In this document: piece after piece, positions 16,971-28,649 of the stretch
Layout of the letters: each line of letters starts with the position of its first letter
Numbering within the stretch: position 1 is the first letter of the stretch
DNA from: a bacterium
Lineage (GTDB): Bacteria; Hydrothermota; UBA3073; JACQXS01; JAGMCI01
Direction of reading: 5' to 3'
Assembly: GCA_030018315.1 (NCBI GenBank)
Contig: JASEGA010000016.1
Span: 1-47,526, forward strand
DNA: 47,526 nucleotides
Notes under the pieces: generated by a model
Told to the model about the DNA's origin: nothing
Databases searched by the model: none
Seen by the model: the letters and a program-made list of their open reading frames with translations, nothing else
Translations under genes and position numbers: made by a program

Positions 16971-17348
16971 TTACCCCCTTTCCCTGAACTCGTCGTATAA
17001 CTCCTTGTGAGATTGTCTGACATGTGCCAGTAACCCCATTCGGCTTGTTCCTTGGTAGTCTTCGCAGTATGGGCAGTCAAACTCACCCTTCTCCTGCTCT
17101 ACCTCGGGATTTTGTTCCTCCTCGGTTAAATCAGGCTCAACAGTTTCAACACTGTTGGGTAATCCGTCGCTGTCGCAGGGTTTTACCCTTGCCATTTTCA
17201 CTTGGAGATGAACACAAGCCTTGATTTCCCTCAATTGGTAATCACTTACCTCAACCTCTGTGGTTTCCAGAGGAGGAAAGTGTTTTCCTCCTCTGTGTAC
17301 CACGCTGGTGTACTTGTTTGTGACATTAACCTTGGACAATTTACTCAT
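16971..17348 (-). CDS. Capsid-region protein with C-terminal C2H2 zinc finger
   Basis: A 125-residue protein encoded right after the major capsid gene. The N-terminus is beta-like (VTNKYTSVVHRGGKHFPPLE). An acidic linker follows (EPDLTEEEQNPEVEQEKGEF). The last 35 residues form CPYC-x12-H-x4-H with the aromatic and Leu positions of a classical C2H2 finger. Its position suggests a minor capsid or decoration protein; the finger may bind DNA or help assembly. The fold assignment is solid but the role is inferred. Confidence 0.75.
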   Translation of the reverse strand: MSKLSKVNVTNKYTSVVHRGGKHFPPLETTEVEVSDYQLREIKACVHLQVKMARVKPCDSDGLPNSVETVEPDLTEEEQNPEVEQEKGEFDCPYCEDYQGTSRMGLLAHVRQSHKELYDEFRERG

Positions 17349-24296: not shown

Positions 24297-25787
24297 TTAA
24301 ATGACGCATTTCTCACACTCTTCCACAATTACCTGGTTTTTTCTGCTTTTATCTCTGTATACTGTCAGTCCTTTACAGCCCATTCTGTAGGCATGCCAAA
24401 CTGCATCTTCCACATCACGCTTTGTAGCTCCACCTGGGAGATTAATGGTCTTGCTTATTGCATTATCCACGTGCTTCTGCCAAATTGCTTGATGTTCCAC
24501 GTGCCACACCCAATGTATCTGCCCTGCTGTCCTAAACAGCTCTTCATCATACTTACCCCATAATGGATGATATCGTGTGTACTCTATATCTGCCTGATGA
24601 CGTTTCTCAGACACGGCAAATATTGGCTCTATACCACTTGAACACCCTGCCAGGATACTTATGCTGCCTGTGGGTGCAATCGTTGTTACAGTGGCATTTC
24701 TACCAGCACTGGCTTGCTTTCCCACCTGTTGAATGAAGCCTCCAAGCTGGTCTGCAAGCTTCAATGCCTCATCGCTATCATATTTGATACTAAGCTTAAT
24801 GAGCATATCTGCCCAGCCCATTACACCCAGTCCTATTTTCCTGGTTTTCTTTGTCATCTCAGCAATCTCTGGTAAAGGGAAGTTGTTACAGTCAATTACC
24901 CCATTCAAAAACTCTACCGCATTAGTAACGGTATCAGCAAGCAGGTCATAATGCACTTCTCCACCTGGAAGAACATGCTCTGACAGATTGATTGACCCTA
25001 GGTTGCAACTCTCATATGGCAACAAAGGTTGCTCTCCGCAAGGGTTTGTAGCTTCCATCTCACCCAGTTCAGGCATAGCCCTATTCCTATTTATAGTGTC
25101 TATGAATAGCACTCCAGGCTCACCGTTGTACCAGGATTGTTCTATAATCAAATCCCAGATATCTTTAGCTCTAACGGTTTCCCAAACTTCGTTATTCCTG
25201 GGATTAATCAAATCAAAACTTGCATCCTGCTCCACTGCTCTCATAAATTCGTCTGTAATAGCCACGCTGATGTTGAAATTGCTGATAACTCCATCAACGT
25301 GTTTGCATTTGATAAACTCAACAATGTCTGGGTGGTCAACTCTCAACACACCCATATTGGCACCACGTCTCATACCTCCCTGTTTAACCGTGTCTGTGCC
25401 AACGTCGTAAACCCTCATAAAACTAATTGGTCCACTGGCTACCCCTCCAGTACTTTTGACCTTATCTCCTTTCGGTCGTAGCCTGCTAAAAGAGAACCCT
25501 GTTCCACCACCGCTCTTGTGTATCATGGCTGTGTGCCAGAGACTGCCAAAGATACTCTCCATGCTATCTTCTATTGGTAACACAAAGCAGGCTGACATTT
25601 GTCCAAGCTCTCTACCTGCATTCATCAATGTTGGACTGTTGGGTAAGAACCTGTTTTCTGCCATCAGTCGCTTACCATTGCCAACCTTGACGTAGTTTGC
25701 TACACGATCGAACATTTGTTCTGGTGTCTCATTTGGAGCTAAATACCTCCTCTTGAGCAATTCCAATTGAACTTCATCAAATTTCAT
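24297..25787 (-). CDS. nrdJ: Ribonucleoside-diphosphate reductase, adenosylcobalamin-dependent (class II, NrdJ type)
   Basis: A 496-residue protein. The barrel is intact: LPNSPTLMNAG, the radical-pair Cys in MSACFVLPIEDS, the active-site loop NPCGEQPLLPYESCNLGSINL, TIAPTGSISILAGCSSGIEPIF, and a C-terminal redox pair ECEKC. It reduces ribonucleotides to deoxyribonucleotides. It is much shorter than most class II enzymes (700-1000 residues): there is no ATP cone, and the usual linker after the LADQLGGFIQQ helix is missing. RBS AAAGGAGG. It lies at the end of the metabolic block. Confidence 0.85.
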   Translation of the reverse strand: MKFDEVQLELLKRRYLAPNETPEQMFDRVANYVKVGNGKRLMAENRFLPNSPTLMNAGRELGQMSACFVLPIEDSMESIFGSLWHTAMIHKSGGGTGFSFSRLRPKGDKVKSTGGVASGPISFMRVYDVGTDTVKQGGMRRGANMGVLRVDHPDIVEFIKCKHVDGVISNFNISVAITDEFMRAVEQDASFDLINPRNNEVWETVRAKDIWDLIIEQSWYNGEPGVLFIDTINRNRAMPELGEMEATNPCGEQPLLPYESCNLGSINLSEHVLPGGEVHYDLLADTVTNAVEFLNGVIDCNNFPLPEIAEMTKKTRKIGLGVMGWADMLIKLSIKYDSDEALKLADQLGGFIQQVGKQASAGRNATVTTIAPTGSISILAGCSSGIEPIFAVSEKRHQADIEYTRYHPLWGKYDEELFRTAGQIHWVWHVEHQAIWQKHVDNAISKTINLPGGATKRDVEDAVWHAYRMGCKGLTVYRDKSRKNQVIVEECEKCVI

Positions 25788-25891: not shown

Positions 25892-26378
25892 TCAACATTT
25901 TATTTTGTTGAAATCCAATTTAAGGTCTTTCCTTGATGAAAGGTAGTCGCAAAGGTGGACATACCACTGTATGGTGCTGCTTGGCTTCGGCTCTCCCCAC
26001 TTACCCATGTGGGTGGCAATACATTCCCCTACACGCCACCTCAGTGAGCCTTCAGGTACGCCTGCACAGTACTTCTCCTGGGCAATCTTATCGTGTCCGT
26101 CAACAGTGTGTTCCTCAGTCTCACCGTGCTTCCAGGTGTCGTGTAATATCAGTGCAGCTATAACAATGTCCTCTTCTGTGCTGGTGAAGTCCATCAGCTC
26201 GAACAGATTGATTGCTACCCACACTGCTGCCCTGGTATGTCTTACCAACCCACCTTCACCCTGGGAGAACTCTGGCTGGCACTCTCCAGAAGTATTCTGG
26301 TGCTTGTTCCAGGCATTCCTCTACCCACTGTCTCAGTCTGTCGTGCTTAATCCACCTGGTACACCTCTTCAGCTCCAT
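25892..26378 (-). pseudogene. HD-domain phosphohydrolase split by a frameshift
   Basis: The first segment starts at ATG 26378 and reads MELKRCTRW...CLEQAPEYFWRVPA, then ends at a TGA (26256). The +1 frame continues with GEGGLVRHTRAAVWVAINLF, HDTWKHG and HTVDGHDKIA to a TGA at 25892. Together they have the order of the HD family that reads PEYFWxxPAS...GEGGLVRHT...HD. The total length, 487 bases, is one too many for a single frame, so one surplus base near 26260-26275 (for example in the CCC) would explain it. Without the N-terminal part, a TTG start at 26248 could still yield a short HD protein. The substrate is likely a nucleotide. Confidence 0.65.
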
Positions 26379-26668
26379 TTACCTTCACCTCCACATTCAG
26401 TACACCGCCAGATACCTGCATCAAAGGCACAGAATACCTGTTGGTTGAACTCGTCTCTGTCATCCACGCTGGTGCCACACTTTGGGCATTCAGTTGGTCT
26501 GTTATCTCCTAATGATAGCACGCTTGGCTTAGGTTGTGGTTGTACGCCCACCTCCTGCATAGCCAGTAGCCTGAACCAAGTACTCATTGATACACCCTTA
26601 CTCTTTGCTACTTTAGCTACCTGGTTGTACAACTCCTCATCCAGATATACGTTCACACCTTTCTTCAT
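26369..26668 (-). CDS. Ribbon-helix-helix DNA-binding protein with C-terminal zinc ribbon
   Basis: A 99-residue protein starting MKKGVNVYLDEELYNQVAKVAKSKGVSMSTWFRLL, a clear CopG/MetJ-type RHH domain. The C-terminus has CPKC and, further on, CTEC, a zinc ribbon. I chose ATG 26668 because GGGGGA lies 7 bases upstream; the longer frame to 26761 is not protein-like. It is encoded directly downstream of repeat region B. RHH proteins often bind tandem 7-11 bp repeats, so the phased CAGGTT sites are its probable target (inference). Confidence 0.75.
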   Translation of the reverse strand: MKKGVNVYLDEELYNQVAKVAKSKGVSMSTWFRLLAMQEVGVQPQPKPSVLSLGDNRPTECPKCGTSVDDRDEFNQQVFCAFDAGIWRCTECGGEGKWS

Positions 26669-26802: not shown

Positions 26803-26898
26803 CGCAGGTTGTTTCAGGTTGTTTCAGGTTGAAACAGGTTGGGACTTGGTCAAATTTCAGGTTGTTTCAGGTTGAAACAGGTTGAAACAGGTTGAATT
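26803..26898. repeat. 10-bp-phased CAGGTT array in region B (two blocks of four)
   Basis: CAGGTT occurs at 26805, 26815, 26825 and 26835, and again at 26858, 26868, 26878 and 26888, always 10 bases apart within each block. The linker bases alternate GTTT and GAAA. A 17-base spacer (GGGACTTGGTCAAATTT) separates the blocks. This is the same unit as in region A (AACCTG), in the opposite orientation. Confidence 0.88.
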
Positions 26899-27060
26899 TT
26901 AACCAAATCCCTGCGGATTTCATCTGTTTTGAACTTCCACCGTCGGTTAGCTTTTTGACTAAGCCCTGCTATTGGTGAACTTTTAAAACCGATATTCTCT
27001 CGCAACCTGAAAACCAGGTTGGTGTAAAAATTTTTTCGGCTGCAGAAAAATTTTTTACTA
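26803..27060. repeat. Repeat region B: inverted partner of 2630-2842
   Basis: This lies in a 471-base gene-free interval (26669-27139). Read on the minus strand it shows AAAAAATTTTT tracts, CCAACCTGGTTTTCAGGTTGCGA, TCGGTTTTAAAA, AACCGACG, a palindrome AAATCC-GCAG-GGATTT and then the AACCTG array. This is the same order as region A read on the plus strand. The distance from A is about 24.2 kb one way and 23.3 kb the other, so the two are nearly opposite on the circle. Beyond 27060 (27061-27139) I see no further elements. Confidence 0.8.
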
Positions 27061-27139
27061 AAAGGGTTTCTGCAAAATGCTCGAACCCTCGGTATTAGTA
27101 TCGGCTTGAAACAGTTATTTCAAGATAAACCACGTAATT

Positions 27140-27547
27140 TCAAGCTTTTGGGACTTCCCACTCTTCACCATCAAACCTCTCTGGTTTTACACCAGCCCAG
27201 GTTATACCTCTCTTGATGTCACTGATTGTCTCCTCCGACACACCGTAACGCTCTGCCAGTTCTACATTTGTGTACCCCTTACCCAGTAGTAACTTAATTC
27301 TGGCAACCTGTTCTTTCCCCAACTTGGCATTCCTTGGCTTACCCTCTGGTTTATAAGGCTTGGCAGGTGGCTCTGGTCGCTCCCAGTCATCTTCAAGTTT
27401 GACGTGTGCCCAGGTCTTACCGTGCTTGATGTCGCTGACCGCACCTGGAGATATACCGAATTCCCTGGCTACATAACTATTCTTGCAACCTACCTCCAGC
27501 ATCAGCTTAATCATCTTTACTTCCTTCTCTGACATCTTTCTGTTCAT
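27140..27547 (-). CDS. Protein with two HNH-endonuclease-type HTH repeats
   Basis: A 135-residue protein made of two copies of one module: VKMIKLMLEVGCKNSYVARE...GAVSDIKHGKTWAHV and VARIKLLLGKGYTNVELAER...ETISDIKRGITWAGV. The I-K-x-G-x-T-W-x-x-V ending is the DNA-binding tail found at the C-terminus of many phage HNH homing endonucleases, but no nuclease domain is present. The ATG at 27547 has GGGAGGT 6 bases upstream. It lies beside repeat region B. DNA binding is likely; the target is unknown. Confidence 0.75.
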   Translation of the reverse strand: MNRKMSEKEVKMIKLMLEVGCKNSYVAREFGISPGAVSDIKHGKTWAHVKLEDDWERPEPPAKPYKPEGKPRNAKLGKEQVARIKLLLGKGYTNVELAERYGVSEETISDIKRGITWAGVKPERFDGEEWEVPKA

Positions 27548-27693: not shown

Positions 27694-28146
27694 TAAGTTC
27701 ATCCACCTCCCTTATATTGGCTGTAAAGAATTGGTAATATAAAGCATGCCTTACGCTATCCCTGCTGTGCCTCTGCCCTCGGTCATAAAACCCTAACATT
27801 TTGAGCCTGTCATCACCAAAGAACTTCTTCTGTGCAGGTGATTGCTTAACCAGCTTTACCCCTGCCTTGTAAGCGAACCACTTGATAACACCTATCACTT
27901 GTGGTGTCTCAAACTCACTACCAATCATAGCCTTGGCACTGCTCTTCCGCAAAGCATAGTTCTCATAGATAATTGTGTCGAACTCCTCAATACGCTCCTC
28001 TAACATATGGAGAAACTGGGTTACACCCAGTTCCCCCTGTTCTAGTCTCTCCTTCCCTTGCCAGATACTATAACCCACGGTCTCACCTAACCAGGGTCAA
28101 CAGAGATGTATCTAACGTCTTTTCCTAGCGTCTCTCCACTCTTCAA
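27686..28146 (-). pseudogene. RuvC/RNase H-like resolvase, one base missing
   Basis: The intact part, 27686-28078, has the later catalytic features: IIYENYALR (Glu) and HSRDSVRHALYY (Asp/His). The first motif, VRYISVDPG, with the first catalytic Asp, is upstream in another frame (28090-28120) and joins LGETVGYSIWQGKE only if the TT at 28089-28090 is TTT. The span 27686-28146 is one base short of a full reading frame. With that base restored, a 153-residue enzyme would start at TTG 28146. As it stands only a GTG start at 28078 can be used, which loses the first Asp and so the activity. It would cut branched DNA during recombination or packaging. Confidence 0.7.
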
Positions 28147-28330
28147 ACCCATTTGGCATCACTCCTTTCCAGGTTTTGCCCTGTGCAATTTTGTTTACTG
28201 CAGTCTGATAAACACCATATTTAACTGCAAGGTCTTTCACTAACTCACCCTTCATCAACCTCTCCCTGATTTCCATTACCTTATTTTCATCAAGCTTGCT
28301 GTTTGAGACTCTGCGTTTACCCCCCTTCAT
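28112..28330 (-). CDS. Small HTH protein (homing-endonuclease-type tail module)
   Basis: A 72-residue protein starting MKGGKRRVSNSKLDENKVMEI and ending ...AVNKIAQGKTWKGVMPNGFEEW. It is another copy of the module seen at 27140-27547, with no nuclease domain. The ATG at 28330 overlaps the upstream stop codon. An ATG at 28366 is possible, but neither has a strong RBS, so translation is probably coupled. Confidence 0.65.
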   Translation of the reverse strand: MKGGKRRVSNSKLDENKVMEIRERLMKGELVKDLAVKYGVYQTAVNKIAQGKTWKGVMPNGFEEWRDARKRR

Positions 28331-28649
28331 ACTGCCAAGTGTCCCACCCTTTTGGTCCAGGCTCATTGGAGTAACTATTCTTGTGTGCTATTTGGAGAAC
28401 CTGCCTATGTCCCATCCCAAGTTCCCTGGCAACCCTTTTTGCACTCGCACCTTCCATCAACCTAACCCTGATGTTATCCAACTCCTTCTTGGTCAAATTG
28501 CTCTTGGGATGGTTGAACCCCCATTGGGTAGGTGGTTTGTCTTTGTAGCTCCGAAGGTGGCTGTGCCCACCTTCCCACTCCTTGTCAGTGTTGTAGACAA
28601 TAACCCCCTCCGAAGCCTTGATAATGATAAACTGTATATCAGCAATCAC
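28317..28649 (-). CDS. Small phage protein fused to an HTH module
   Basis: A 110-residue protein with two parts. The N-terminus (IADIQFIIIKASEGVIVYNTDKEWEGGHSHLRSYK) resembles a small protein often found near phage polymerase genes. The C-terminal half (LTKKELDNIRVRLMEGASAKRVAREL...HRQVLQIAHKNSYS) is a further HTH module like those at 27140 and 28112. It starts at GTG 28649, overlapping the polymerase stop. Function unknown. Confidence 0.65.
   Translation of the reverse strand: MIADIQFIIIKASEGVIVYNTDKEWEGGHSHLRSYKDKPPTQWGFNHPKSNLTKKELDNIRVRLMEGASAKRVARELGMGHRQVLQIAHKNSYSNEPGPKGWDTWQYEGG

Follow-up and report, generated by a model that had tools for sequence, protein, structure and literature searches.

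Regions A and B of a tailed-phage genome are inverted copies of a single element of about 300 bp, in which an array of the heptad CAGGTTG on a 10-bp lattice adjoins a box of approximately 160–240 bp. In sister phages the layout of these elements is kept and the heptad is CAAGGTG. A protein combining a ribbon-helix-helix (RHH) domain with a zinc ribbon is encoded by the first gene after array B. Judged from sequence comparisons, the chances are about even that dimers of this protein bind in rows to both arrays, by which it would control its own operon from B and an early operon from A.

Two inverted elements in a phage genome

The window, i.e. the whole stretch of DNA analysed, is one complete contig of 47,526 bp (contig 16 in a 74-contig assembly of 1.95 Mb) and is a tailed-phage genome. 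Its main phage genes all lie on the − strand, with lysis and structure genes at approximately 3–26 kb and replication and metabolism genes from approximately 27 kb onward; a Sak4-like annealing protein is among the encoded products. The genome appears to be circular or circularly permuted, since a 68-aa open reading frame (MTYGLRW joined to RKDQLAG...) continues in frame from the left end of the window into its right end, and since both ends are matched on a single piece of DNA in the sister contig L046, with approximately 490 bp extra between them. No terminal overlap was found between the window ends. Elements A and B and their immediate surroundings comprise the following features.

2210–2509, − strand: S13-like H2TH protein (PF22525), first gene after element A
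2510–2791, − strand: box of element A
2793–2839, − strand: array A, with CAGGTTG on the − strand at 2793, 2803, 2813 and 2823 and an inverted unit (+ strand) at 2833
2849–2870, − strand: terminator-like hairpin, which ends the unit transcribed towards array A
26805–26841, + strand: block 1 of array B, CAGGTTG four times with a 10-bp period and spacers TTT, TTT and AAA
26858–26894, + strand: block 2 of array B, CAGGTTG four times with a 10-bp period
26897–27139, + strand: box of element B, homologous in part to box A and in the same orientation relative to its array

The first-pass annotation had described array B as eight CAGGTT units in two blocks of four, all 10 bp apart. The units and the blocks are confirmed (+ strand starts at 26805, 26815, 26825 and 26835, then 26858, 26868, 26878 and 26888), but the step is not uniform, with 23 bp separating the start of the last unit of block 1 from the start of block 2. 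Tandem Repeats Finder also detects array B, as a 53-bp super-unit with a score of 138. The smaller array proposed for region A is present, with five units on a single 10-bp lattice throughout. Allowing up to two mismatches, CAGGTTNNNNCAGGTT has 22 matches in the window, where shuffles give 5.6 ± 2.2 (maximum 11). All nine of its perfect occurrences are inside arrays A and B. The 10-bp lattice is thus the informative feature of the arrays; the bare hexamer CAGGTT (93 occurrences in the window against 35 expected) is not, because it is common across the whole genome.

The boxes show that the duplication goes further than the earlier proposal that the RHH protein may mark both regions. Arrays do occur at both, yet this understates the case, as whole elements of about 300 bp are duplicated in inverted orientation. 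This follows from the homology of the boxes when the two are aligned in the same orientation relative to their arrays (117 identities in 157 columns, z = 25 against dinucleotide shuffles). Box B contains CGTCGGTT, TTTTAAAACCGA and the palindrome CAACCTG-AAAAC-CAGGTTG (27003–27021), and box A has the core GGGGTAAAATTTTTTC, a slightly altered version of which is found at element A of the sister phages. Both elements face the replication arc, and in each the array is at the end towards the structural arc. Another recurrent motif, AAACCGA/AACCGA, occurs in both orientations around elements A and B (2123–2150, 2578–2584, 2694–2742 and 26943–26992), in the sister elements and also elsewhere; it has stayed the same while the heptads changed.

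Several observations concern the surroundings of element A. The S13-like H2TH protein is possibly related to actinobacterial mIHF, and its gene was not found in the sister loci L046, L057, L059 and L060. A Type II hammerhead ribozyme (1113–1184, − strand; 52.1 bits, cut-off 37) stands in the gap separating the amidoligase gene from the next one, and is likewise found right after the amidoligase gene in these four loci.

Sister phages: conserved lattice, different heptad

A search with the TerL protein returned five IMG/VR contigs at 82–83% identity; more distant TerL relatives (L048–L051) have little in common with the window beyond TerL itself. The RHH gene is present in L011, L013 and L015, each time with an array in front of it in which every unit is CAAGGTG. 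A lack of arrays in relatives that keep the RHH gene would, according to the first-pass annotation, have refuted its proposal; an array is present at the same place in three of three such loci. Searching with the RuvC-like neighbour gave no further B loci. Sister loci for element A (L046, L059 and L060) were obtained by a pattern scan combined with an amidoligase search, and their units are again CAAGGTG except for one degenerate CACTGTG. In the sisters, element A is preceded immediately by a hairpin and followed by the amidoligase gene, and in L046 the terminator-like hairpin is at the position equivalent to 2849–2870 of the window. The stretch from element A to the amidoligase gene also contains, apart from the heptads, short tandem repeats of the GTTTGAAAAA type with a 10-bp step in L046 (780–840) and L059 (3825–3860).

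The window and its sisters thus have in common the 10-bp step, the A/T triplet spacers (TTT, AAA, AAT, ATT) and the outer CA...TG frame of the heptad, and differ in its central three bases, GGT versus AGG. The orientation of units within one and the same element also varies, reading >>>><>><>>> in L046 and ><<>>><>>> in L059, and in all seven arrays with both orientations the inverted units hold the 10-bp lattice and an identical 7-bp frame. Such inversions in place fit a protein dimer with two-fold symmetry well, and are not explained by slippage.

Spacing between blocks carries a weaker signal. An uninterrupted row at 10-bp steps drifts off one face of a helix with 10.5 bp per turn. The inter-block gaps of 14, 23 and 24 bp in the window and sister arrays return the units toward one face at this pitch, with block starts near whole turns (5.05, 6.10, 4.19, 6.10 and 7.05). 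Array by array the fit is unremarkable, being equalled by 14–29% of gap choices, and the arrays are mutually related; the placement of units on one helical face is suggestive only.

Elements A and B are kept alike within a phage type. The sister boxes A and B agree at 210 of 233 positions (L059 A against L015 B), closer than window A and sister A (131 of 172), in a pairing made across contigs that come from one sample or from related ones, with no single sister contig spanning both elements. This is concerted evolution, probably by gene conversion, and it could account in part for a joint change of units without selection on a protein.

Four further viral contigs with CAGGTTG at 10-bp spacing (L007–L010) were rejected as relatives: tblastn matched none of 21 window proteins, their spacers differ from those of the window, and no neighbour of the array could be recognised as an RHH gene on reading their open reading frames.

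The RHH-zinc-ribbon protein as candidate reader

Two genes flank element B, and each encodes a possible DNA-binding protein.

26369–26668, − strand: RHH and zinc-ribbon protein (99 aa), first gene after array B and candidate reader of both arrays
27140–27547, − strand: double helix-turn-helix (HTH) protein, on the far side of element B from the RHH gene and a rival array reader

The start codon of the RHH gene is 137 bp from array B. The assignment made in the first-pass annotation, an RHH domain fused to a zinc ribbon, holds: the sister protein (L013:3704–3991) matches RHH_1 at 27.4 bits, above the Pfam cut-off of 20.5, and a PDB profile search with the RHH protein has CopG and AvtR among its matches. 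The window protein itself is below the Pfam cut-off (RHH_5, 20.1 against 26). Its predicted model has helices at residues 11–24 and 28–40 after an extended N-terminus (pLDDT 72), the strand being unassigned in the monomer. In a fold search the top matches are Arc, CopG and further RHH chains, with AmrZ also present, at the low significance to be expected of a domain this short (best E 0.17).

Comparisons with databases found the protein in this phage group. It had no match among annotated phages (nor had the DNA of region B), matched only its own genome among those of the phylum, and was unmatched outside the phage group in phage records, IMG/VR and genome collections. The sole match from a genome collection, L055 (Anaerotignum), was rejected, as the zinc ribbons alone are in common and there is no RHH domain.

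Most proteins of the window are 60–85% identical to their sister counterparts, whereas the RHH protein is 39–41% identical to those of the sisters (41–43% over its whole length in the comparison with the L013 protein). The RHH part accounts for more of this divergence (12 of 38 residues identical) than the zinc ribbon (22 of 39). Within the RHH strand, MKKGVNVYL in the window corresponds to VKKSISVYL in the sister, such that strand positions 4 and 6 differ (G and N versus S and S) and position 8 is the same (Y). By analogy with AmrZ, for which the alternate strand residues K18, V20 and R22 are important in binding DNA (PMC3325190), positions 4, 6 and 8 would be expected to face the DNA. Other proteins with low identity are the double-HTH protein (37–42%), a small HTH protein (28112–28366; 37–40%, possibly a match to a paralogue), the sigma factor (47%), a structural protein (16971–17348; 50%) and the tape measure protein (32–46%).

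Two genes downstream of the RHH gene also differ between the phages. The HD-domain gene that follows it (25892–26380) looks split in the window, with a 118-aa open reading frame from a TTG start, and is one 171-aa frame in the sisters; the length seems to differ near 26270–26290, and the apparent split may be real or an assembly error. Ribonucleotide reductase genes are swapped at one site: the window gene (24297–25787) matches an NrdA/NrdJ-type barrel (PF02867), and the sisters have an anaerobic NrdD with a radical-SAM activase-like gene (L013 4601–6804).

In the proposed mechanism, every pseudo-symmetric heptad, CA-NNN-TG, would be occupied by a single RHH dimer, and neighbouring dimers would be one helical turn apart (7 bp plus 3 A/T bp), so that a row of dimers could fill cooperatively along one face of the DNA. 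At B, the protein would limit its own operon (RHH, HD, ribonucleotide reductase, terminase, structure and lysis genes); at A, it would control the unit starting there, from the amidoligase gene onward to the replication genes. We infer all three of the binder, the cooperativity and the direction of control. The proposal draws on the joint retention of gene and array in L011, L013 and L015 together with the CAAGGTG unit at both sister B and sister A, on the greater divergence of the RHH part and the differences at strand positions 4 and 6, on the inverted units that keep lattice and frame as a two-fold-symmetric dimer would, on the precedent of Omega, and, suggestively, on the inter-block gaps.

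Omega (ParB of pSM19035) with its parS arrays is the nearest known working model. It is an RHH protein that binds rows of 7-bp non-palindromic units in both orientations, with one dimer per heptad and several arrays per replicon, and its arrays overlap promoters, among them the one from which Omega itself is expressed (PMC9499535). The Omega heptads (WATCACW) are contiguous at a 7-bp step, whereas the phage units are at a 10-bp step (7 + 3) in every block; Omega also has a ParA partner, whereas no ParA was found among the phage proteins scanned, and the phage RHH protein carries a zinc ribbon. On account of the step and of Omega's ParA partner, the phage arrays are not classed as a parS system. 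CopG aligns with the N-terminal RHH part over 43 residues including the strand MKKxxxxxL (E = 0.018), a weak match in sequence only, and differs in being 45 aa long without a zinc ribbon. The CopG operator is a short pseudo-symmetric element and not a long array. StbA of plasmid R388 belongs to a different protein family than the RHH-zinc-ribbon protein. Its stbDRs resemble the phage arrays in that direct repeats, grouped into two sets, lie upstream of the operon that encodes the protein binding them, and more copies are found at other promoters (PMC3098194). They differ in having 9-bp repeats with 2-bp spacers (11-bp step) and a function in plasmid stability. AmrZ is likewise an RHH protein in which strand residues i, i+2 and i+4 are important for DNA binding, but it is a bacterial regulator and, to our knowledge, has no zinc ribbon. 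For autorepression it uses two sites (PMC3325190) rather than arrays.

Alternative readings and what the elements may mean

The joint change of unit and protein favours a reader encoded by the phage, which would fit the double-HTH protein as well. This protein lies beside B in the sister loci too, has diverged as much as the RHH protein and is predicted to have two tandem HTH units, which could grip adjacent heptads one turn apart; it is a serious rival as the actual binder of the heptads. That it fills this role in place of the RHH protein is nonetheless unlikely, as its first recognition region has kept the SDIK/KTW part although all array units changed, and a non-symmetric binder gives no reason for the identical 7-bp frame of inverted units. 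Further points count against the RHH reading. The sigma factor is also low in identity, gene conversion between A and B could spread a change of unit without selection on a protein, and scans for sigma-70 promoters near arrays A and B gave chance levels with none standing out. In addition, A and B are oppositely oriented while all genes run one way. Simple promoter control would not lead one to expect this, and with whole elements duplicated in inversion an origin, bridging, centromere-like or other direction-independent role is conceivable.

Replication origins are one such role, in which the heptads would be iterons and the box a hairpin-prone, A/T-rich start marked or regulated by the RHH or the HTH protein. 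A circular DNA would be served by an inverted pair of origins separated by roughly half its length, and the element centres are 24.03 kb apart where half the genome is 23.76 kb; array and box are duplicated together, so that the function looks direction-independent, and the boxes fold as single strands better than shuffles in four of four cases tested (z −2.2 to −3.3). Folding scores are, however, a weak type of evidence, a switch in GC skew is absent at A and B, and no Rep-type initiator was recognised among the proteins scanned, which makes the origin role doubtful. Partitioning or tethering of phage DNA by RHH-coated arrays, as in ParB-type RHH systems, is improbable. The likeness to Omega and parS speaks for it, as does R388 StbA, which stabilises its plasmid through direct-repeat sets without the ATPase partner StbB (PMC3098194), and an integrase was not noticed in the phage. 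Against this, no ParA, ParM or TubZ was found in Pfam and PHROG scans of approximately 24 window proteins or on reading the other translations, and with its structural, lysis and replication genes the phage looks like an ordinary one. It is very improbable that no specific protein is involved and that the arrays are slippage repeats or phased A/T tracts that curve the DNA, homogenised between inverted copies by recombination. A/T triplets do recur every 10 bp, A and B are strongly alike within one phage type, and the Sak4-like protein is at hand, but to curve DNA, three-base tracts would be short, the heptads are constant where the bases of the spacers vary, place and lattice are conserved though the flanking DNA has diverged, and slippage does not invert a heptad in place.

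A broader form of the RHH reading is put forward only tentatively, and is doubtful: the RHH-zinc-ribbon protein and its arrays may have changed specificity jointly (CAGGTTG versus CAAGGTG), and the inverted pair may be direction-independent control or organising elements at roughly opposite points of the genome. A and B might, for example, be bridged to divide the genome into two loops, or might couple the start of replication to an early/late switch. A natural case in which a protein and its whole set of sites change together would offer a direct route to how specificity evolves. The candidate change is small, comprising two strand residues and three central bases, and several sister contigs show it at their elements, so that it could be tested by binding assays alone.
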